Part shown: positions 5,266 to 23,004 of the stretch, one piece after another | How the letters are laid out: the number at the start of each line of letters is the position of its first letter | Position numbering within the stretch: position 1 is the first letter of the stretch | Source: Fundidesulfovibrio agrisoli | Lineage (GTDB): Bacteria > Desulfobacterota > Desulfovibrionia > Desulfovibrionales > Desulfovibrionaceae | Length of the DNA: 43,155 bases | Assembly (NCBI RefSeq): GCF_022808715.1 | Contig: NZ_JAKZKX010000029.1 | Location: 1 to 43,155, forward strand | Direction of reading: 5' to 3' | The notes under the pieces: generated by a model | The model's input: the letters and a program-made list of their open reading frames with translations, nothing else | Database searches by the model: none | What the model was told of the DNA's origin: nothing | Translations under genes and position numbers: made by a program

Positions 5266-8200
5266 CTACGCCCCTCCGCCCTTACCGCCTTCCTCCGTCG
5301 GGGCGGGCTGCCCTTCCTGGCCGCCCTGCCCTGCCTCGGCAGCGGCGGCTGGCTCTTCCGGCTTGCCTCCCTTGGAAGGTGCAAGGGGCTTCAAGGGCTT
5401 CAGCTTGAGATCGGGCTTGCGCCAGGCCCCGCCAACGCAGAAGCTGTCCCAGGCCCAGCGCAGCCAGCCCACCAGGGAGAAGGCCAGCCACAGGGACCAG
5501 GCCAGCATCAGCCCCCGGTACCACCACACGGAGACGGACCAGACCTTCGCCACGGGCAGGGCCGAGGGCGTGCGGTCGAACAGCCAGACCAGATGGTGCG
5601 GGTTGGAGCCGTTGCCCTGCACCATGCCCACCGCCGCGCCCAGCAGGCCGTCGCGCACGGCCTCGAACAGGCAGCTCAGCCCGGCCAGCACCAGGCAGAC
5701 CAGCAGCACCTGCACCGCGTTGAAGGCGAACCAGCCCTCCCGGATCTGGTAGTTCCGGCGCAGGCCCAACGCCACGAGCCAGGCCGCCGCGCCAAGGGCC
5801 ACGACGCCACCGGGCTGCACCAGCCCCAGCCCCAAGAGCATCCACTGCGCGAAGCCCAGCGGCGTCCACGGCAGGCGGGAGAACAGCGCCGCAACGATCA
5901 ACACCACACAGAGCGTGCCCCAGAACACCACGGCTGGGCCCATGGGCGTGGCCCCGGAGACCCAGAGCACCCAGCGGTCCCGCGGCAGGTCCAGGGTGAC
6001 CTCGGCGTTCACGGCCGGGTGCCCCACGTCCACGGTGGGGCTGGCCCCGGCGAAGAAGCCGTCCCTGGGCTGCCGCCAGTTCACCGTGACCTCCTGCACG
6101 CCGGGCGAAAGGGCGATGCCCACTTCTCCGGGCTTGTCGGACGACCAGGGCGCGGGCTGCCCCCCGATCTGCAACCCGGTGAGCTGCGCGTCGGCGGGCA
6201 ATGCGAGGGTGTGCCGCCCCCCGAGGGAGGAGCGCAGGTGGAGCATGAGCCGCACCTCGTCCTGCCGCGCCCCCAGGGCGGAGCGTAAACGGACACGGTC
6301 GATGGTCAGGCTCTCGCCCGGCGCGGCCTCGGGCCTCGTGAGCTTGATGGAAGCCTTCTCGCCGGGCCAGGGCCGCCACATCGGGCTCCAGGCCCCGGAT
6401 TCGTCCTGGCTGGCGGTGACCGGGATGCCCGAGAGGGCCACGTCCCACACGGGGGAGGCCCTCAGCCGCCAGGTCTCCACCCAGGGGGCGTCAGTCGGGG
6501 CTTCAAGGGTCACTTCGGGGGATATGTCCAGGCGGGAGCGCCAGGAGAGTTCCTGCCGACCGGCCGCCAGGGAGACGACGGCCTTGCCGTTCTCCACGGG
6601 CACGCCGCCCTCCAGCACGGATTCGCCGGGCATGAGCCCCACATGGACCAGCACGGGCTGGTCCGCCGGGGTCATGCGCCGCACGGTGGTCCGCGCCTGC
6701 CAGGCCAGCCCGAGCTCCAGCGTGCGCCGGACCTCCAGGAACGGCGGGTACACGGGCGTGAGCGAGGCCTGCTCCTTCCGGCCCGCCTCGCCTTGGCGCG
6801 TCAGGCGCAGGGAGCCCTGGAACACGCCGTCCTGGTCGATGCCCAGCACGGCCCAGCCCGGAGCCTCCACCCGGCAGGTTCTGGGTTGGAGCGGCGCGGA
6901 GATCGTGACGGCCACGTCAGCCGGTACGGGGCCGCTCATGACGACCTTGTGCGCGCCCTCCTCCAGCAGCGCCCAGAGCCCGGCCTCGGTGGCATACAGG
7001 GGGACGGGCTTGCCGTCCGCGCTCAGGGACGCGGGCCGCCAGCCGCTGACCACGGGCAGGGGCATGGCCAACTGCGTGGCCGCTCCGGCCTCCAGCGTGA
7101 GGGTGAGGCCCTTGGCGTCCAGATTGACAGCCATGGAGGATACGCCCGCGCAGGTGGGGAAGCACTCGGCAGGGGCCAGCAGGCGCGTGCGCAGCTCGTC
7201 CAGCACTTCCTTGGGGGGCGCCTCCCCGGCCTGGGCAGCCCCTGCCGAGGCCAGTGCGGCCAGGCAGAGCAGCACGGCCGCCACGGATTTGCCGGCGCGC
7301 AGGGTGGAGCCGATCATGCCCCCGGCCACCAGCCAGATGCCCGCCAGCAGCAGCGCCACCCGGACGAAGCAGAGGGCCGTGTTGCCCGCGGGCGGCATGA
7401 GCATCAGGCGCAGGGTCTGGTTGGCGTCCACCGGGCCGTTCCAGGTCAGGCGGACGCTGTGCCACCTCCAGGCGGGTATGCCTGGGCCGGTCTGCACCAG
7501 GCTGGAGGGGTCGGACCCAAGGAAGACCGCCCCGCCCTCCGCCTGTGTTCGGGGAGCCTTTTCCTTGGCCAGTCTTTCCATGGAGACGGACGGGGACACG
7601 GGCGGCGCGGCCTGCGGCCTGGGCACGGGGGATGCCTCCTGAGCCTCCATTTCGTCCGTCGCCTGCATGGGCGACATCTCCACCCTCTTCACTGAAGCTG
7701 GGCCTGGGGAAAAAAAGGACGGTGTGAACTGCGGATGCAGGCCCAGGCGGATCTGGTCCGCCGCGAAGGCCAGGGCCGCGAGGCACAGCGCCAGCACCGC
7801 GCCCGCCCGCAGGATGCGCAACGCCCCGGCCACGCGGGGCCAGTCCCCGGCTTTGGAGCTGGATTCGAATGCCCGGGACACTCCCAGCACCGCCAGCAGC
7901 ACGAGCCAGGTGTCCACTGGCGCGCCGGGCTCGTGCTGCGCCAGCAACAGGAAGGCCAGCAGCGCCGCCCCGGCGGCCACTCCGCGCAGTTTCCAGGCCC
8001 CGAGCGCGGCCAGCATGGTGATGAAGATGTCCAGCAGGTTCCACTTCCCGGCCCAGGATTCGCTCAGGGCGTCCGGCCCGGAGGCGTCCAGCAGGGTCCA
8101 GCCCGGCGGCAGGTGCAGCACCGCCGACAGGGAGGAGACGCCCGCCTCCCAGCCTGTGGCCGGGATGGCGATGGAGGCGTCGGGGTAGCGGGCCTCGGCC

Positions 8201-9462
8201 GTGACCGCCAGGGGGGACTGGCGCAACTCCACGCCGCGCCGCTTCTCCGGCCCGAGCAGCACCACGGGCAGGTCACGCCCGCCCGAGCTCACCCGGCCCA
8301 GCTCGCCGGGCTCGCGCATGGCCAGCACGGGCGAGCGGCGCAGCGGCCCCGAGATGGTGTCCTGGGCGGTGAGGCCCTTGCCGTCGAAATCCAGCCAGAG
8401 CTCGCGGCCGACCTTCAGGTCGTCCCCCGGCGGCAGGGATTCCCCGCGCCGCACCAGTTGCAAGGCCACGGTGGCCCCCTTCTCCAGCACGTAGGCCGGG
8501 AAGCGCTTCCAGTCCTGGGGCAGGTCCGAGGTCTGGGGGTCGGTGGAGGGCGGGCCGGAGAGCTTCACCTCCCGCAGGGCCTTGTCGGCCTGGAAGGCCC
8601 AGGTCTCCCGCCCGAAAGGAGCCGCCACCGGACCCACGGACATGATCCCGCCGGGCAGGCGGCTGACGATCTCCACATCGTACCTGCCCGCCCCGGCCTG
8701 CACCAGCACCTTGCCGTCCGGCCCGAAACCCACGGGGATGGGCGAGTTGACGCCCAGCGGCTCGGAGCCGGGCAGCAGCAGGCCGTCCAGGGTCATGGTC
8801 CGGGAGCGCCCGGAGACCTCCAGGCGGGCCAGGGTGGTGAGGGTCATGGGCTGGCCGTCGCGCAGCAGGCGCATGACGGTCACGCCCAAGGCGTCGGCCT
8901 GGGCTTTGGCCGTGTCCGCGCCGGAGACGTCCAGCGCGCCGTCGGGGGTCAGGCGGGGGTTCTCGACGGGCTTGCCGTCCACGGTCAGCTCGATCAGCCC
9001 GGTCTGGGCGGCGATGCGCACGGCCTGAGGCTTGCGCTTCCAGGGCAGTTGGCCCTCCACCTGCCATTCTCCGGGCTGGAGCCTCAGCCCGGGCCTGCCG
9101 TTCATGTCCAGCACGGCGGCGGGCTTGCCGCCAAGCGTCACGGCGGCGGGCCAGAGCCCCTGCGCCCACGGCAGGGGCACGGTCTGGGGGGCGAAAACCC
9201 TGAAGTTCTGCTTGAAGGTTGCGCCGTCCGCGGCCACGGCCAGCTTCAGCCGGGTGGGATACGCGCATTGCCGCTGGGCGGGGTCCAGGGCCTGGGGCGG
9301 GCATTGGGCCGCGTCCTGCCGGTAGAGCGTCCAGCCGGCCCAGGGGGCGAGGTCCGGCGGCAACCAGGGCTTGTCCTGCGCGGGGGCGGACTGCGGGCTG
9401 AACAGTGCGGCGGCAGCCTGCAGCAGCAGGCACAGAGCGATGGCGACGGTCGGTCTCGGCAT
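5266..9462 (-). CDS. Very large two-module membrane protein, function unknown
   Basis: I do not recognise this 1398-residue protein. It starts with a signal peptide (IALCLLLQAAAALFSPQSAP, cut near residue 28). A long beta-rich, probably periplasmic, region follows to about residue 470. A first group of hydrophobic segments spans about 475-575, a Pro/Ala-rich linker about 585-640, then two hydrophobic segments near 690-745; the second (VAAVLLCLAALASAGAAQAG) itself looks like a signal peptide with an AQA site. A second soluble beta-rich region spans about 750-1165, then five or six membrane segments about 1170-1345 and a charged, Pro/Lys/Gly-rich tail. The two halves have the same plan, which suggests fusion or duplication. 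The start has SD AAGGAG 6 nt upstream. It stands alone, divergent from mutY with a 69-nt gap. Confidence 0.85.
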   Translation of the reverse strand: MPRPTVAIALCLLLQAAAALFSPQSAPAQDKPWLPPDLAPWAGWTLYRQDAAQCPPQALDPAQRQCAYPTRLKLAVAADGATFKQNFRVFAPQTVPLPWAQGLWPAAVTLGGKPAAVLDMNGRPGLRLQPGEWQVEGQLPWKRKPQAVRIAAQTGLIELTVDGKPVENPRLTPDGALDVSGADTAKAQADALGVTVMRLLRDGQPMTLTTLARLEVSGRSRTMTLDGLLLPGSEPLGVNSPIPVGFGPDGKVLVQAGAGRYDVEIVSRLPGGIMSVGPVAAPFGRETWAFQADKALREVKLSGPPSTDPQTSDLPQDWKRFPAYVLEKGATVALQLVRRGESLPPGDDLKVGRELWLDFDGKGLTAQDTISGPLRRSPVLAMREPGELGRVSSGGRDLPVVLLGPEKRRGVELRQSPLAVTAEARYPDASIAIPATGWEAGVSSLSAVLHLPPGWTLLDASGPDALSESWAGKWNLLDIFITMLAALGAWKLRGVAAGAALLAFLLLAQHEPGAPVDTWLVLLAVLGVSRAFESSSKAGDWPRVAGALRILRAGAVLALCLAALAFAADQIRLGLHPQFTPSFFSPGPASVKRVEMSPMQATDEMEAQEASPVPRPQAAPPVSPSVSMERLAKEKAPRTQAEGGAVFLGSDPSSLVQTGPGIPAWRWHSVRLTWNGPVDANQTLRLMLMPPAGNTALCFVRVALLLAGIWLVAGGMIGSTLRAGKSVAAVLLCLAALASAGAAQAGEAPPKEVLDELRTRLLAPAECFPTCAGVSSMAVNLDAKGLTLTLEAGAATQLAMPLPVVSGWRPASLSADGKPVPLYATEAGLWALLEEGAHKVVMSGPVPADVAVTISAPLQPRTCRVEAPGWAVLGIDQDGVFQGSLRLTRQGEAGRKEQASLTPVYPPFLEVRRTLELGLAWQARTTVRRMTPADQPVLVHVGLMPGESVLEGGVPVENGKAVVSLAAGRQELSWRSRLDISPEVTLEAPTDAPWVETWRLRASPVWDVALSGIPVTASQDESGAWSPMWRPWPGEKASIKLTRPEAAPGESLTIDRVRLRSALGARQDEVRLMLHLRSSLGGRHTLALPADAQLTGLQIGGQPAPWSSDKPGEVGIALSPGVQEVTVNWRQPRDGFFAGASPTVDVGHPAVNAEVTLDLPRDRWVLWVSGATPMGPAVVFWGTLCVVLIVAALFSRLPWTPLGFAQWMLLGLGLVQPGGVVALGAAAWLVALGLRRNYQIREGWFAFNAVQVLLVCLVLAGLSCLFEAVRDGLLGAAVGMVQGNGSNPHHLVWLFDRTPSALPVAKVWSVSVWWYRGLMLAWSLWLAFSLVGWLRWAWDSFCVGGAWRKPDLKLKPLKPLAPSKGGKPEEPAAAAEAGQGGQEGQPAPTEEGGKGGGA

Positions 9463-9531
9463 GGCCTCTCCTTCTATCGACGGCGTCCTTGCCCTGTGCT
9501 ATAACCCAGCCTGCCCGAATTGGAAACGAAC

Positions 9532-10623
9532 ATGCCTGACGCATCCCGCTTTTCGTCCCTCCTGCTGGACTGGTTCCGGCAGGCCAAACGCCCCCTGCCC
9601 TGGCGCGACGGCTACGATCCCTATCAGGTCTGGCTCTCGGAGGTTATGCTCCAGCAGACCCAGATGGACAGGGCCGTGGAGTATTTCAACCGCTTCCTGG
9701 CCCGCTTCCCCGACGTGCACAGCCTGGCCCGCGCCAGCGAGGAGGAGGTGCTGCGGCTCTGGGAGGGGCTGGGCTATTACGGCCGCGCCCGCAACCTGCT
9801 CAAGGCCGCCCGGGCCATCGTGGATGTGCACGGCGGGGCGGTGCCCTCCTCCGCCGCCGAGCTTTCGGCCCTGCCCGGCGTGGGAGCCTACACCACCGGG
9901 GCGGTGCTCTCCATCGCCTACGGGCAGGACATGGCCGCCGTGGACGCCAACGTGGAGCGCGTTCTGGCCCGCGTGTTCGACATCGCCCTCTCACCCAAGG
10001 CGCCGGAAGGCCGCAGGCGCTTCGCCGGGCTGGCGCTCTCGCTCATACCCCAGGGTCAGGCCCGCGACTTCAACCAGGCGCTCATGGAGCTCGGCGCGCT
10101 GGTCTGCACCCCGCGCGACCCGGCCTGCCCGCGCTGCCCCCTGGCCTCCATCTGCCTCGCCCTGGCCAAGGACACCGTGGACCTGCGCCCGGCCCTCCCC
10201 CCAGGCAAGCCCGTGGTTCCCATTGGCATGGGCACGGCGGTCATCCTGCACGAGGGGCTGATCTACGTGCAGAAGCGCCTGCCCGGCGGCGTATGGGGTG
10301 GATTGTGGGAGTTCCCGGGCGGCCAGATCGAACCCGGGGAGGAGCCCGAGCAGGCGGCCCTGCGCGAAGTGCGGGAGGAGACCGGCTTCGTGGTGCGCAG
10401 CCTGGGCAAGCTGGCGGTCATCAAGCATTCCTACACCCGTTACCGGGTGACCATGCACGCCTACCTGACGGGCTTCCCCGAGGGCGCCGCGCCGTGCGAG
10501 CCCGTGCTCACGGCGGCCAGCTCCTTCCGCTGGCTGCCCCTGGCCAAACTGGAGGGCCTGGCCTTCCCCACGGCCATGCGCAAGCTGGCCGAGGCCATCG
10601 CCCGCGACCCGCGCCTGGCCTGA
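9532..10623 (+). CDS. mutY: A/G-specific adenine glycosylase with a Nudix C-terminal domain
   Basis: MutY removes adenine mispaired with 8-oxoguanine, preventing G:C to T:A mutation. The 363-residue protein has the catalytic Glu in SEVMLQQTQ (near residue 37), the helix-hairpin-helix LPGVGAYTTGAV, the catalytic Asp in AAVDANVERVL, and the 4Fe-4S ligands as CX6CX2CX5C (CTPRDPACPRCPLASIC). The C-terminal domain, which reads 8-oxoG, here contains a complete Nudix box (GX5EX7REVREETG, near residues 262-285), whereas E. coli MutY has lost it. The ATG at 9532 was preferred to an in-frame TTG at 9520, since neither has a strong SD and MPDASRF fits better. It is divergent from the large membrane protein gene. 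Confidence 0.95.
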   Translation: MPDASRFSSLLLDWFRQAKRPLPWRDGYDPYQVWLSEVMLQQTQMDRAVEYFNRFLARFPDVHSLARASEEEVLRLWEGLGYYGRARNLLKAARAIVDVHGGAVPSSAAELSALPGVGAYTTGAVLSIAYGQDMAAVDANVERVLARVFDIALSPKAPEGRRRFAGLALSLIPQGQARDFNQALMELGALVCTPRDPACPRCPLASICLALAKDTVDLRPALPPGKPVVPIGMGTAVILHEGLIYVQKRLPGGVWGGLWEFPGGQIEPGEEPEQAALREVREETGFVVRSLGKLAVIKHSYTRYRVTMHAYLTGFPEGAAPCEPVLTAASSFRWLPLAKLEGLAFPTAMRKLAEAIARDPRLA

Positions 10624-15896: not shown

Positions 15897-16114
15897 ATCG
15901 CGCTCCTCCGGAGGTTCTACCCGCATGTCACGCCTTAGTAAATATTTTCGCCGGAGCCCCATTGTCTTGAATTCTGGACGGTTTGCGGCTAGTCTGAAAT
16001 GTGTGCCGAATCCCGGAGCGCAGCGTCCCTCCCGGCGCTCGCGGCCCCGCGTGGCGGGTCGCCGGCAACACACCGACACCATACGCATATCGACCAGAAC
16101 GCCGGAGGCTCGCA

Positions 16115-17350
16115 GTGGAGCGGAAACCCGAAACAAGGACGCCCGACGTGGGGGACAAGACCAAGAGCTTCCACAAGGGCCAGGTCATCTACAAGGAGGG
16201 CCAGTCCAGCAACGAAGCCTACATCATCAAGCAGGGCTCGGTGGGCGTGTACCGCCTCTCGGGCAACAAGCGCATCACCCTGGGCATCATGCGCCCGGGC
16301 CAGATTTTCGGCGAGATGGGCGTCATCAGCGAAGAGAAGCGCACCGCCTCCGCCGAGGCGCTTGAATACACCGAAGTCATCGTGCTGGACCAGAACCTCC
16401 TGCACACCCTGCTGCTCAAGTGCCCCCGCCCGGTGCAGATCATCACCACCTACCTCGTGGAGCGCATCCGGGCCCTCAACGCCCGCGTGACGGAGCGCAG
16501 CTGCTCCAACACCTTCTCGGCGGTCTGCAACATCATCCAGCTGGCCTGGAAGGGCCTGCCCAGGCCCTCGGCCGCGCCGGGCGCGAAACCCGGAGCCAAG
16601 GGGGAGGCCGCGCAGCTCTCCACGGTGGAGCTCTCCCGCACCATCAAGGACATCCTGCTCATCTCCCAGGTGGAGATCGACGACATCCTGGAGAAGCTGG
16701 CCAAGCTGCACGTGGTGGAGATCACCGACGTCAAGGGCTCCCGCTACCGGCAGGATCCGCTGCTCGGCACCAGGAAGAAGACCGGCGAATTCGTGCGGGA
16801 GCGCCTGCTCTCCGTGCCCGACTTGGAGCGCTTCGCCAACGTGACCCGCAACCTGGCCAAGGACAACCAGGACGACACCGCCTGCGAGCTGGAGTTCATC
16901 GACCTGGACGACTTCGCGGCCCTGGTGCAGGCGCAGCCGGAAACGATCCTGAAAAAGATTTCCTACGGCGAGATGCCCCCCACCTCCTTCTTCTTCCACA
17001 AGCGCTCCATCACGGACTACGCGGAGCAGGTGGGCGGCGAATTCTTCCAGCGCGCCAAGCGCCCGCGCCTCAAAACCGAAGACCTGGCCACCGTGCAGGA
17101 CATCGTGGCCGTGGACAACGCCACCCTGGGCGAGGCGCTCTCCAAACTGGGGTTCTACAAGGTGTCGGTGCTGGCCTCCCTGGCCGGGCCCGAGGCCAGG
17201 CAGAAGATCATGGCCAACCTCTCCAAGAAGATCGCGGCCGTGGTCACCGAGGAGGTCGGACGCCTGGGCGCGGTGGACCCCGACGAAGCCTCGGACATCG
17301 AGGACGAACTCCTGGCGCTCATCAAGACCATGAAGGGGCTTAACGGGTGA
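16115..17350 (+). CDS. Cyclic-nucleotide-binding protein with a FliG_C-like domain
   Basis: The 411-residue protein begins with a cyclic nucleotide-binding domain (about 18-125) whose phosphate-binding cassette is intact: Glu67 in FGEMG and Arg76 in KRTASAE. A winged-helix-like segment follows (about 168-205, LSRTIKDILLISQVEIDDIL), then a region I do not recognise (about 210-325). The last 85 residues (QKIMANLSKKIA, then the LGAVDPDEASDIEDEL segment) resemble the FliG C-terminal domain, which contacts the MotA stator, though the LDDR motif of FliG reads VDNA here. A GTG at 16115 with SD GGAGG 7 nt upstream was chosen over the open frame from 16001. Its stop overlaps the motA start (GTGA). I infer a regulator or adaptor of the stator encoded next to it; a Crp-like transcription factor is the alternative. 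Confidence 0.82.
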   Translation: MERKPETRTPDVGDKTKSFHKGQVIYKEGQSSNEAYIIKQGSVGVYRLSGNKRITLGIMRPGQIFGEMGVISEEKRTASAEALEYTEVIVLDQNLLHTLLLKCPRPVQIITTYLVERIRALNARVTERSCSNTFSAVCNIIQLAWKGLPRPSAAPGAKPGAKGEAAQLSTVELSRTIKDILLISQVEIDDILEKLAKLHVVEITDVKGSRYRQDPLLGTRKKTGEFVRERLLSVPDLERFANVTRNLAKDNQDDTACELEFIDLDDFAALVQAQPETILKKISYGEMPPTSFFFHKRSITDYAEQVGGEFFQRAKRPRLKTEDLATVQDIVAVDNATLGEALSKLGFYKVSVLASLAGPEARQKIMANLSKKIAAVVTEEVGRLGAVDPDEASDIEDELLALIKTMKGLNG

Positions 17351-18126
17351 ACATAGCCACAGTCATCGGCTTCACGGCGGGCATCATCATCCTGGGGACG
17401 GCCACGTTCTTCGCCACGGATTCCGCGCGCGTCTTCATCAACTTCCCGGGCCTGGCCATCGTGCTCGGCGGCACCCTGGCCTCCACCTTCATCTGCTTCC
17501 CGCTCAAGGAAGTCACCCGGGTTTTCAACATCTTCCTCACGGCCCTCAAGCGCGAGGAGCTGCCCATCGGCAACTACATCGAGGCCATCGTGCACATCGC
17601 GCGGGAGGCCTCGGCGCGGGGCAAGGTCCACCTGGAGAGCGCCCTGCCCGGCATCGAGAACGAATTCCTCCAGAACGCCATCCAGATGCTCGTGGACGGC
17701 TACTCCCGCGAGGAGATCAAGGAAATCCTGGAGACGCGCATCGAGCAGACCTACCAGCAGGAGATCTCCTCGGCCGGCATCTACCGCACCATGGCCAAGC
17801 TCTCCCCGGCCTACGGGCTCATCGGCACGCTCATCGGCTTCATCGGGCTGATGCAGGTCATGGGCAGCGGCGGCCTCTCCACCCTGGGCCAGCATATGGC
17901 TGTGGCCCTGACCACCACGCTCTACGGCATCCTGCTCTCCAACCTGATCTTCCTGCCCATCGCCGTGAAGGTGGAGAAGCGCATCGAGGAGCGCGTGCTG
18001 CTCATGTGCGTGATCCGCGACGGCGTGCTCTTCATCAAGGACAAGACCCCCGCGGCCATCGTCTACGACAAGCTCAAGGCCTACCTGCCCCCCAGGCGCT
18101 GGGCCTCCATCGGCAAGCGCCCCTAG
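17347..18126 (+). CDS. motA: Flagellar motor stator protein MotA
   Basis: MotA forms the ion-channel stator with MotB and pushes on FliG. The 259-residue protein has four membrane segments (about 1-22, 32-52, 150-175 and 182-205), the conserved Pro-containing SPAYGLIGTLIGFIGLMQVM before segment 3, and the large cytoplasmic loop with charged residues between segments 2 and 3. The GTG start overlaps the upstream stop codon in GTGA, so translation is coupled to the CNB/FliG_C gene. The coupling ion is not evident from sequence. Confidence 0.95.
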   Translation: MNIATVIGFTAGIIILGTATFFATDSARVFINFPGLAIVLGGTLASTFICFPLKEVTRVFNIFLTALKREELPIGNYIEAIVHIAREASARGKVHLESALPGIENEFLQNAIQMLVDGYSREEIKEILETRIEQTYQQEISSAGIYRTMAKLSPAYGLIGTLIGFIGLMQVMGSGGLSTLGQHMAVALTTTLYGILLSNLIFLPIAVKVEKRIEERVLLMCVIRDGVLFIKDKTPAAIVYDKLKAYLPPRRWASIGKRP

Positions 18127-18135
18127 GCCTGGCCC

Positions 18136-18948
18136 ATGCTCAACCTCAGCAAACTGCGCGGCCGCCAGAAGGACGAGGACGAGGGGACCTGGTTCGTCTC
18201 CCTGGCGGACCTGCTCACCCTGCTGCTCTGCTTCTTCGTGCTCATGCTCTCCGTCTCCCAACTGGACCAGGACCGCTACAAGAAGGTGGCCAGCGCCCTG
18301 GAGGAGTCCCTGAAGGCCGAGAAGGCCAAGCGCTCCGCCCTGCCCCAGGGAGTGCCCGTCAAGCAGGACATCAACCTGGGCGGCCAGCTCTACCCCGTGG
18401 TGCCCCCCGCCCTGCCCCCGCAGGTCTATGAGAACAAGATCCCGGCCGGGGGCCTGAACCCGCCCGCGCAGACCGGGCAGCCCAAGCCCGGCAAGTCCAT
18501 CGACGAGGTGCGCAACGAGCTGGGCCTGCGCTTCGCCCAGGACCCCGCCGGGGTGCAGATCGAACAGCGCGAGGGCGGCTTCGCCATCACCCTCAAGGGC
18601 GCGGTGCTCTTCGACAAGGCCAGCGCGGACCTGACCGCCAACTCCATCCCCTATCTCGACTCCATCGCCGCCTCGCTGCGCGGCACGCCCTACGCCGTCA
18701 CCGTGGAGGGCCACACGGACAACCTGCCCATCCAGTCCTTCGTGTACCCCTCCAACTGGGAGCTCTCGGCGGCCCGGGCCTCCCGCGTGGCCAGGCACCT
18801 CATCGACCGGGGCGTGGCCAAGGAGCGCATCCACGTGACCGGCTACGCCGACACCCGCCCCGTGGCGCCCAACGACACCCCGCAGGGCCAGCCCATCCCC
18901 GAGAACCAGGCCCGCAACCGGCGCGTGGTCGTCCTCATCAATCCATGA
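18136..18948 (+). CDS. motB: Flagellar motor stator protein MotB
   Basis: MotB anchors the stator to peptidoglycan and carries the ion-binding aspartate, here Asp25 in VSLADLLTLLLCFFVLM of the single membrane segment (about 20-40). A Pro-rich linker (about 75-120) leads to the OmpA-like peptidoglycan-binding domain (about 140-268) with VEGHTDNLPI and LSAARASRVARHL. The 270-residue length is normal. It lies 9 nt after motA, and its stop overlaps the start of the TPR gene. Confidence 0.95.
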   Translation: MLNLSKLRGRQKDEDEGTWFVSLADLLTLLLCFFVLMLSVSQLDQDRYKKVASALEESLKAEKAKRSALPQGVPVKQDINLGGQLYPVVPPALPPQVYENKIPAGGLNPPAQTGQPKPGKSIDEVRNELGLRFAQDPAGVQIEQREGGFAITLKGAVLFDKASADLTANSIPYLDSIAASLRGTPYAVTVEGHTDNLPIQSFVYPSNWELSAARASRVARHLIDRGVAKERIHVTGYADTRPVAPNDTPQGQPIPENQARNRRVVVLINP

Positions 18949-19757
18949 GCGGCGCGGACACCCTGGACATCGGGCCGGACACGGCCCAGCCCAAGCTCAA
19001 GGGCGTGTTCTCCTCTTCGGCGCTGCCCGGGCAGGAGCCCGACCCGGCCGTGGAAAAGCACTTCTGGTTCGCGCGCGAGAGCGTGCCCGGCGTGGTGAGC
19101 ATCCAACTGCTCGACGAGCACCAATTGCCCACGCAGCGCAAGATACAGGTGCCCAGGGACGAATTCCTGCGCGATTTCACCCTGGAGCCGGACCTGGGCT
19201 ACAAGCTGCTCACGCAGCGCGTGCTCATGGGCGACTACTACCGCAACCAGGGCATGAACGTTGAGGCCAAGATCGAGTACCAGAAGGTGTTGCGCGTGGA
19301 CGAGGAGAACATACGCGGCAACTTCGGCCTGGGCCTGGCCTACCTGGCGCTCAACCAGTTGGAGAAGGGGCGCTACGCCTTCGAGAAGCTTGTGCGCCTG
19401 GACGAGAGCTTCAGCGCCGAGCACAAGCACCTGTTCAACGATTTCGGCATCGCCTTGCGCAAGCGCGGCCTCTTCGACGAGGCCCTGGCCTTCTACCACC
19501 GCGCCCGCGAACTCTGCGACGACGACGAGCACCTGCGCCTGAACATCGCCAGGGCCTGGTTCGAGAAGGGCGACACCGAGATGGCCTTCACCGAGCTGCG
19601 CATCTGCCTGGAGCTGGACAACAACTTCCGGGAGGCGCTGGCCTTTCTGGCCTACCTGCAGAAGCACGAGATCATGCCCCAAAAGCCTGAGCTGCGGGAA
19701 TACTTCCAGCGCATGGCGCTCAAGCGGAGCGAGTTCGGGTCCCTGCTGGAGGATTGA
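18945..19757 (+). CDS. TPR-repeat protein of the stator operon
   Basis: This 270-residue protein has no signal peptide or membrane segment, so it is cytoplasmic. From about residue 85 it consists of tetratricopeptide-type helical pairs (LLTQRVLMGDYYRNQGMNVE, then GNFGLGLAYLALNQLEKGR, GIALRKRGLFDEALAFYHRA and NIARAWFEKGDTEMAFTEL), a scaffold for protein contacts. The first 80 residues have no recognisable fold. Its ATG overlaps the motB stop as ATGA, so it is the last gene of a coupled four-gene unit. A role in stator assembly or in binding the CNB/FliG_C protein is inference. Confidence 0.85.
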   Translation: MSGADTLDIGPDTAQPKLKGVFSSSALPGQEPDPAVEKHFWFARESVPGVVSIQLLDEHQLPTQRKIQVPRDEFLRDFTLEPDLGYKLLTQRVLMGDYYRNQGMNVEAKIEYQKVLRVDEENIRGNFGLGLAYLALNQLEKGRYAFEKLVRLDESFSAEHKHLFNDFGIALRKRGLFDEALAFYHRARELCDDDEHLRLNIARAWFEKGDTEMAFTELRICLELDNNFREALAFLAYLQKHEIMPQKPELREYFQRMALKRSEFGSLLED

Positions 19758-21903: not shown

Positions 21904-23004
21904 TCAAATATCCTGCACGCTGTCCAGCGTGCCGGTCGACGGCGCGCCGCCCTTCATCCCCGCGCCCTTGGGCGGTCTGAACTCGCGGGAGAAGAGCTTG
22001 AGGTGCAGCTTGCGGCCTTCGGCGAAGTTGGGGTTGATCCACAGCGCCTTGAGGATGGCCTCCTGCGCGCCCTTGGGGTCGCCCATGAAGAACATGGCTT
22101 TGGCCATGTTGAAGTGGATGTTCTCGTCGTCGGGGGTCAGCTCCAGGGCCTGGCGGTAGGCGTGCAGCGCCCCGGGCAGATCCCCGGCCTTGCGCAGCTT
22201 GACGCCCAGGGTGTTGAAGGGGTTGGGGCTGTCGGCGTCGTACTTGAGCACCTCGATGAACAGCTCCTTGGTCTCCTCCAGCCGGTTGAACTGGGCGAAG
22301 GTCTCGGCGGCCTTCTGCAGGTAGGACTTGTAGCCGTCCAGATCGCCCTTGCCCCTGTAAGCCTCGGCCAGGCCCTTGTAGGCCTCCGCGAACAGCTCGT
22401 TGATCTTCACGGCCTTCTTGAAAGCGATGATGGCCTGGCCGTACTTCTGGCGGAGGAGGTACTTGCAGCCCATGTCGTAGTACTTCTGGGCCTGGTTCTC
22501 CTCGGAGACGAGCTCCTCGAAGGCCTCGATGGCCTCGTCGTACTTGCCCGCCGCCAGGAGCCGCTTGCCCTCCTGCAACTGGGACTGCTCGATGTCCGCC
22601 AGGCGGTCCACCTTCAGGGCGCGCAGCATGTGGTTCTGGAAGGTGTCCACCGTGTAGGGGCGCAGCACGTAGCCGTCCACCCCGGCGGCGATGGCCTCCA
22701 GCACCTTGTCCTTCTGCCCCTCCTGCGTGACCATGATGACCGGCGTATCGCGCAGGTCCATGTTCAGGCGCATGAGTTTGAGGAACTTGAGCCCGTCCAT
22801 GTCCGCAAGCTGGGAGTCGAGCACCACCAGGTCCGCGCTTTGCGCGCCCAGGAAGTCGATGGCCTCCGAGCCGGAGGCGAAATGCTCGATGAGCGCTGCC
22901 TTGAGCTGCTTGAGGCACTGCCTGTCGCGGCGGGCGTGATCCTCCACCCCGGTGACGGTGATCACGACATCCAACCTGATGGGGGAAGAGACCTTTTCCG
23001 GCAC
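21904..23004 (-). CDS. Response-regulator receiver protein with TPR repeats
   Basis: The 366-residue cytoplasmic protein has an N-terminal receiver domain (about 10-130) with the phospho-acceptor Asp63 in LVVLDSQLADMDG and the signalling Thr in VIMVTQE. The Lys that normally completes the active site (KP) is Arg here (VLRPYT), and the acidic pair is only plausibly Glu21-Asp22, so phosphorylation chemistry may be altered. From about residue 145 on it is a series of TPR repeats (KYDEAIEAFEELV, YGQAIIAFKKAVKI, LPGALHAYRQALEL and GDPKGAQEAILKALW). Receiver-TPR proteins act as phosphorylation-controlled scaffolds; the partner is unknown. It lies 39 nt behind the HD-domain gene on the same strand. 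Confidence 0.88.
   Translation of the reverse strand: MPEKVSSPIRLDVVITVTGVEDHARRDRQCLKQLKAALIEHFASGSEAIDFLGAQSADLVVLDSQLADMDGLKFLKLMRLNMDLRDTPVIMVTQEGQKDKVLEAIAAGVDGYVLRPYTVDTFQNHMLRALKVDRLADIEQSQLQEGKRLLAAGKYDEAIEAFEELVSEENQAQKYYDMGCKYLLRQKYGQAIIAFKKAVKINELFAEAYKGLAEAYRGKGDLDGYKSYLQKAAETFAQFNRLEETKELFIEVLKYDADSPNPFNTLGVKLRKAGDLPGALHAYRQALELTPDDENIHFNMAKAMFFMGDPKGAQEAILKALWINPNFAEGRKLHLKLFSREFRPPKGAGMKGGAPSTGTLDSVQDI

Follow-up and report, generated by a model that had tools for sequence, protein, structure and literature searches.

What does a cyclic-nucleotide receptor have to do with the stator of an ion-driven motor? This question is raised by a four-gene operon of Fundidesulfovibrio agrisoli, which lies in a stretch of 43,155 nucleotides (contig NZ_JAKZKX010000029.1, positions 1 to 43,155; here called the window). 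In it the gene of a protein with a cyclic nucleotide-binding (cNMP-binding) domain stands directly before paralogues of motA and motB. For this first gene (16115-17350; all operon features given below are on the forward strand) we coined the name crpFliG. According to Pfam and AlphaFold, its product of 411 amino acids joins the cNMP-binding domain to a winged helix-turn-helix (HTH), to another domain resembling an HTH and, at the C-terminus, to FliG_C. The best reading of the operon is that crpFliG may be a second-messenger-responsive adaptor which mimics the rotor.

The genes are closely packed. A likely ribosome-binding site, GGAGG (16104-16108), was read from the sequence and ends six bases before the GTG start codon of crpFliG at 16115. 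The crpFliG stop codon (17348-17350) overlaps the GTG start of motA at 17347 in a GTGA motif. A gap of nine bases separates motA (17347-18126) from the ATG of motB (18136-18948), and motB overlaps the last gene, which encodes a TPR protein (18945-19757, ATG at 18945), by ATGA. On re-reading the sequence, all four open reading frames and their overlaps proved to be as an earlier note on this DNA had described them.

Is the C-terminal domain of crpFliG really that of FliG? The earlier note had proposed this from the sequence pattern, and the proposal has been borne out by profiles and by fold. Pfam identified cNMP_binding at 78 bits (cut-off 27.5) and FliG_C at 30.1 bits (cut-off 23.3), the latter on residues 323-406 (17081-17332). 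Of 61 whole crpFliG homologues, 59 contain FliG_C at E<=0.01, and all 57 C-terminal segments match it at E<=1; two copies not linked to motA fall below the Pfam cut-off, with 17.2 and 21.7 bits. Against the crpFliG family profile the C-terminus of the host genome's own FliG scored 34.3 bits and the best of 2000 residue shuffles 8.5 bits, which rules out a chance resemblance. The profile of the 57 segments retrieved eleven distinct FliG sequences from the PDB (7.9e-12 to 7.7e-4), and the next match was at 0.32. The AlphaFold model of residues 256-411 had a mean local confidence (pLDDT) of 91 and a predicted template modelling score (pTM) of 0.65. Its best 19 Foldseek matches were FliG or flagellar complexes containing FliG, the best with E 1.2e-3, so that none passes E 0.001. 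This model superimposed on 1qc7 at 2.1 Å over 87 columns (target TM 0.84 and 0.76) and on 8ucs_H, FliG on the MotAB stator, at 2.7 Å over 84 columns.

Nevertheless, crpFliG is not a FliG, because FliG_N and FliG_M are absent. Pfam gave these families weak scores of 20.0 and 13.1 bits, against cut-offs of 25, on the stretch of FliG_C itself, and neither was found elsewhere in the protein; against the FliG equivalog TIGR00207 it reached 18.5 bits, the cut-off being 226.7. The fold and the register are those of FliG (PF01706), but the domain is joined to a cNMP receptor instead of C-ring parts.

The cNMP-binding domain occupies residues 17-100 (16163-16414), with Arg117 just behind it on the C-helix. 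The pocket, which the earlier note had considered intact from Glu67 and Arg76, is indeed well kept: Glu67 was present in 61 of 61 aligned homologues, Arg76 in 57 and Arg117 in 54. The domain superimposed on Bd1971 (chain 6hq3_B) at 1.2 Å over 106 columns. Bd1971 binds cyclic AMP (cAMP) with E58, R67 and R108, and crpFliG E67, R76/T77 and R117 align with its ribose, phosphate and base-capping residues (PMC12750041); the offset between the chain and the published numbering was derived in this analysis. The ligand of crpFliG is probably cAMP. One class III cyclase domain was found in the host genome, this being the only cyclase class searched.

Bd2879 (9sfa) and Bd1971 (6hq4), both cNMP receptors of Bdellovibrio, were also the top two fold matches, by E-value, of the whole crpFliG model. 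Bd2879 is described as a putative transcription factor with a nucleotide-binding domain (NBD) followed by two HTH domains, NBD-HTH1-HTH2 (PMC12750041). The TM-score of this match was low (0.26) and the pTM of the whole model was 0.40; the case for a shared architecture is therefore the order of the domains. The two receptors differ from crpFliG at their ends: Bd2879 closes with a region predicted to be disordered, which has a zinc-finger motif, whereas Bd1971 is an enzyme of the EAL type, and FliG_C is described for neither of them.

The middle of crpFliG may link it to DNA. The winged HTH (residues about 133-235, 16511-16819), already recognised as a winged-helix segment in the earlier note and borne out by AlphaFold, was delimited from predicted secondary structure, from column counts and from PDB profile matches to CRP, which extend into its first part only. 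Its recognition helix is acidic, with E187 in 53 of 57 copies and D189 in 45. Positions 185-190 most often read Q, L, E, I, D and a variable residue; lined up by eye with the letters that we assume for CRP, they do not seem to keep what we take to be the DNA contacts of that protein. In the window protein, Pfam placed no HTH family above its cut-off. The second HTH-like domain (residues about 264-306, 16904-17032) was seen in the AlphaFold model and through weak HTH_17 matches, below cut-off, in two relatives. It keeps a basic residue at K280 (K/R in 53 of 57) and K281 in 55 of 57, and is followed by a basic linker (residues 312-320, 17048-17074) with K/R at 315, 316 and 318 in 50, 53 and 56 of 57 copies. 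This domain and the linker leave room for a transcriptional role. Neither had been mentioned in the earlier note.

How constant is the link between crpFliG and the stator genes? We surveyed gene order in 297 genomes of the class, calling crpFliG at E<=1e-25. It was found in 68 genomes, all of one family. The partner MotA, separated from other MotAs by a gap in score from 226 to 153 bits, was found in 67 genomes, every one of them among the 68 carriers and none without crpFliG. The two genes are always on the same strand with motA just downstream, the ends of the matches being 0-62 bp apart. Both motA and motB follow crpFliG in 42 of 42 loci that were fetched and searched, and GTGA or ATGA stands at the crpFliG end in 32 of these. 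Flanking genes vary by clade, while crpFliG-motA-motB is constant. The link to motAB posited in the earlier note holds in 67 of 68 carriers. One genome, G355, was considered as a case with the partner MotA alone; this was ruled out when a search with canonical MotA found a second one.

No crpFliG match was found in the short flanks of twelve MotAs from other families of the phylum (L149-L160), and a plasmid search at E 1e-20 gave none. A contig scan returned one locus; because its query was a single sequence, it could reach no further than close relatives, and in effect the architecture was surveyed within this phylum.

The stator proteins themselves have the conventional parts. Pfam found MotA_ExbB (87 bits) in the first, and MotB_plug (56.5 bits) and OmpA (69.6 bits) in the second. 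In the alignment the ion-carrying Asp25 of MotB is present in 41 of 42 rows, the remaining one being an alignment gap, and the peptidoglycan-binding motif (N207, W208, E209, L210, S211, R214, A215) in all 42. These features are shared with MotA/MotB stators of the PomA and MotD type, but scores for the NCBI equivalogs remained below cut-off (157.7 versus 341 bits for PomA, 189.5 versus 283 for MotD), and in a tree with 16 other MotAs the 42 partner MotAs formed one clade (support 100/99, stem of 3.04 changes per site), the rooting being unsure because several outer branches are long. The host genome also encodes a canonical MotA (C6) and a canonical FliG (C44). At two loci a stator gene is read in two frames, motA in L099 (4627-5399(-)) and motB in L082 (7400-10249(+)), by sequencing error or decay.

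If the domain imitates the rotor, then we can ask: Are the residues of the contact kept on both sides? The profile match to the 331-residue FliG chain 8umd_B placed profile positions 64-152 on 228-316; the lengths are equal and we read it as ungapped. In this register K372, E379, E380, D388 and S355 of crpFliG stand at FliG positions 281, 288, 289, 297 and 264, and the helix with K372, E379 and E380 (17225-17263) is equivalent to the FliG torque helix. Residue 372 is K in 54 of 57 copies, while E or D occupies 379 in 44 and 380 in 54. On the MotA side E97, which is E98 of E. coli, is invariant (42 of 42), and K/R occupies 91 in 37 of 42 and 86 in 39. In the flagellar motor, R90 of MotA contacts D288-D289 of FliG, and E98 contacts R281 (PMC12505986). 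The acid at 379 was kept in 39 of 43 crpFliG copies linked to motA versus 5 of 14 others (Fisher p 1e-4, descriptive only, because the sequences share descent and some are near-duplicates); in the unlinked copies this residue is frequently R (4) or K (3). These patterns suggest that crpFliG and its partner MotA may be a mutually tuned pair, and it is quite probable that the FliG_C domain docks on this MotA.

The mechanism with the best support can be built from these parts. A unit of presumably five MotA and two MotB subunits would be anchored to peptidoglycan and driven by ions, and crpFliG would dock on its cytoplasmic MotA ring. In this picture crpFliG is a soluble receptor of cyclic nucleotides, probably a dimer, and imitates the rotor with its FliG_C domain. 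When a cyclic nucleotide (most likely cAMP) binds to the CRP-like domain, the FliG_C domains could be turned in such a way that MotA is gripped or let go. Grip or release, in turn, might gate the turning of this auxiliary stator, or its freedom to join the flagellar rotor. That the operon is a dedicated auxiliary stator, gated through a rotor-mimicking domain in all these steps, seems to us evenly poised between right and wrong.

A number of observations weigh against such gating. Of the canonical contact only some residues are retained, since the sites of MotA R90, FliG R297 and FliG K264 have changed: the first is S in 29 and A in 11 of 42 partner MotAs, the second is D in 47 of 57 crpFliG copies and the third S or A in 52. 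FliG 264 and 297 are positions that we take to belong to the contact. The contrast at residue 379 is drawn from few lineages, and one unlinked copy with the acid kept (L089) follows a linked motB at a distance of about 1 kb; without it the unlinked share is 4 of 13. With a pTM of 0.40 the whole model does not place the domains of crpFliG relative to one another. One carrier genome (G514, 95% complete, in 430 contigs) has crpFliG without the partner MotA. Three copies of crpFliG are present in 16 of the 17 carriers of one genus, and in the six inspected (L102, L104, L106, L108, L110, L113) two copies stand in tandem with no motA or motB match in the 12-13 kb fetched, which indicates that crpFliG can occur without an adjacent stator. 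An in-frame TAG interrupts one copy in two of these genomes, G405 and G417. No motAB match was found in the stretches fetched around four distant relatives from other families. One of the four, L117, has a cNMP domain but no FliG_C match in Pfam. The other three (L115, L116, L124) belong to another family; they share 22-23% identity with the window protein and 92-99% among themselves, and both halves of the C-terminal profile, built without them, match. In L115, the one scanned by Pfam, cNMP and FliG_C (46.3 bits) were found together with a weak HTH_17 match. All three adjoin chemosensory genes, for a CheW-domain kinase, CheB and a receiver-GGDEF protein, as read from the domains in L115 and from neighbours at least 90% identical in the other two.

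Could the operon encode a machine that serves no flagellum at all? The MotAB ring, again as a 5:2 unit, would then move or strain oligomers of crpFliG and so pass force or a signal to another cytoplasmic target. The separate clade of the partner MotA on its long stem agrees with this, as do its re-tuned FliG-contact site (S/A at R90 in 40 of 42, together with the basic residue at 91) and the opposite charge at the R297 site of crpFliG, expected of a co-adapted pair; in the window, no flagellar gene was recognised beside the operon when the list of reading frames was inspected by eye, no dedicated scan being made. However, flagellin was found in 68 of 68 carriers versus 187 of 229 non-carriers (Fisher p 1e-5, not independent by descent), and carriers free of flagella, which would have favoured a non-flagellar role, were sought and none was found. 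A strong canonical FliG is present in 66 of the 68, the other two genomes being 82 and 89% complete, and in G355 one contig carries both crpFliG and the canonical fliG, about 25 kb apart. We regard a non-flagellar machine as possible, though unlikely.

CRP-type receptors usually regulate transcription. An improbable variant of this role is a regulator tethered to the stator, in which one of the HTH domains binds DNA, FliG_C holds crpFliG at MotA, and stator load or cyclic nucleotide sets its release and so alters gene expression. The domain order of Bd2879 and the kept lysines and basic linker behind the winged HTH are in line with this idea, but the acidic recognition helix and the lack of an HTH family at Pfam cut-off in the window protein are not. 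Slightly less probable still is a plain local regulator that controls its own operon, with FliG_C-like helices serving self-association only. It would suit the usual function of such receptors, the position of crpFliG as the first gene, and the paralogues and distant homologues without motAB, but it leaves unexplained why the FliG_C fold and the charges of the MotA contact are kept, and why linked and unlinked copies differ. To the auxiliary-stator scheme one may add, as a long shot, that the auxiliary MotAB itself is a sensor of load or ion flow which, through the rotor-mimicking FliG_C domain, retains or lets go of a DNA-binding crpFliG, by which cyclic nucleotide and mechanical state would be read jointly.

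Control of stators by second messengers has known examples: YcgR, FlgZ and MotI act on them in response to cyclic di-GMP (c-di-GMP), and the idea of a soluble receptor at the contact of stator and rotor is common to them and crpFliG (PMC12713396, PMC9039648). In contrast to these c-di-GMP receptors, crpFliG has a cNMP domain of the CRP type and carries the rotor domain itself. YcgR, FlgZ and MotI presumably contain a PilZ domain; Pfam gave no PilZ match at E<=1 in crpFliG. No published protein joining cNMP and FliG_C, nor such a stator, was found in titles and abstracts, where subscription literature is thinly covered, and the main text of the 2025 mBio survey of MotAB (PMC12505986) contains neither Desulf nor cyclic nucleotide nor TPR. 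As far as could be seen, the parts are all of known kinds and the combination is new. The operon gives one such stator an identity and a partner. If the proposed gating is true, a rotor domain on a second-messenger receptor would be a new control of an ion-driven 5:2 motor. The presence of FliG_C outside the flagellar rotor also bears on the evolution of the MotA-FliG contact.

The last gene of the operon has a different status. Its product matches TPR_2 (54.6 bits), and a TPR gene stands 3′ of motB in 11 of 42 fetched loci, or 12 of 43 with the window; loci L075 and L078 reach the contig edge soon after motB. The earlier note had joined MotA, MotB and the TPR protein with crpFliG in one unit. 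FliG_C, the cNMP pocket, the winged helix and the link with MotA and MotB stood, but the TPR gene is ruled out as a core member and is rather an accessory in a subset of relatives. Further downstream in the window (21904-23004, complementary strand) lies a gene for a receiver-TPR protein; the counterpart of this protein in L067 shares 29% identity with the TPR protein of the operon. In several relatives such a gene stands downstream of the operon and convergent with it, including some without the operon TPR gene (L081, L083).

Upstream, the window has divergent genes that we take to be pyrK- and pyrD-like. In the clade of L081, L083 and L084 another gene lies constantly in this place, directly upstream of crpFliG and in the same direction. 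It was considered as a nucleotide cyclase and rejected: the L081 copy (6881-9592(-)), the one scanned for domains, encodes a GAF-HD-receiver protein with no cyclase.

In this family FliG_C was apparently recruited on several occasions. Relatives encode other non-FliG proteins of 273-836 amino acids with a C-terminal FliG_C (70.4 and 71.7 bits in the two that were scanned over their full length): L135:4083-5588(-), L136:417-2162(+), L137:4065-6575(+), L138:2026-4479(+), L139:3889-4710(+) and L141:3764-4606(+). In the lists of reading frames around them, to which no dedicated search was added, no motAB was recognised. Short frames of 171-196 amino acids with FliG_C at 110-116 bits (G492:C2, G444:C91, G450:C56) are perhaps second or partial copies of FliG.

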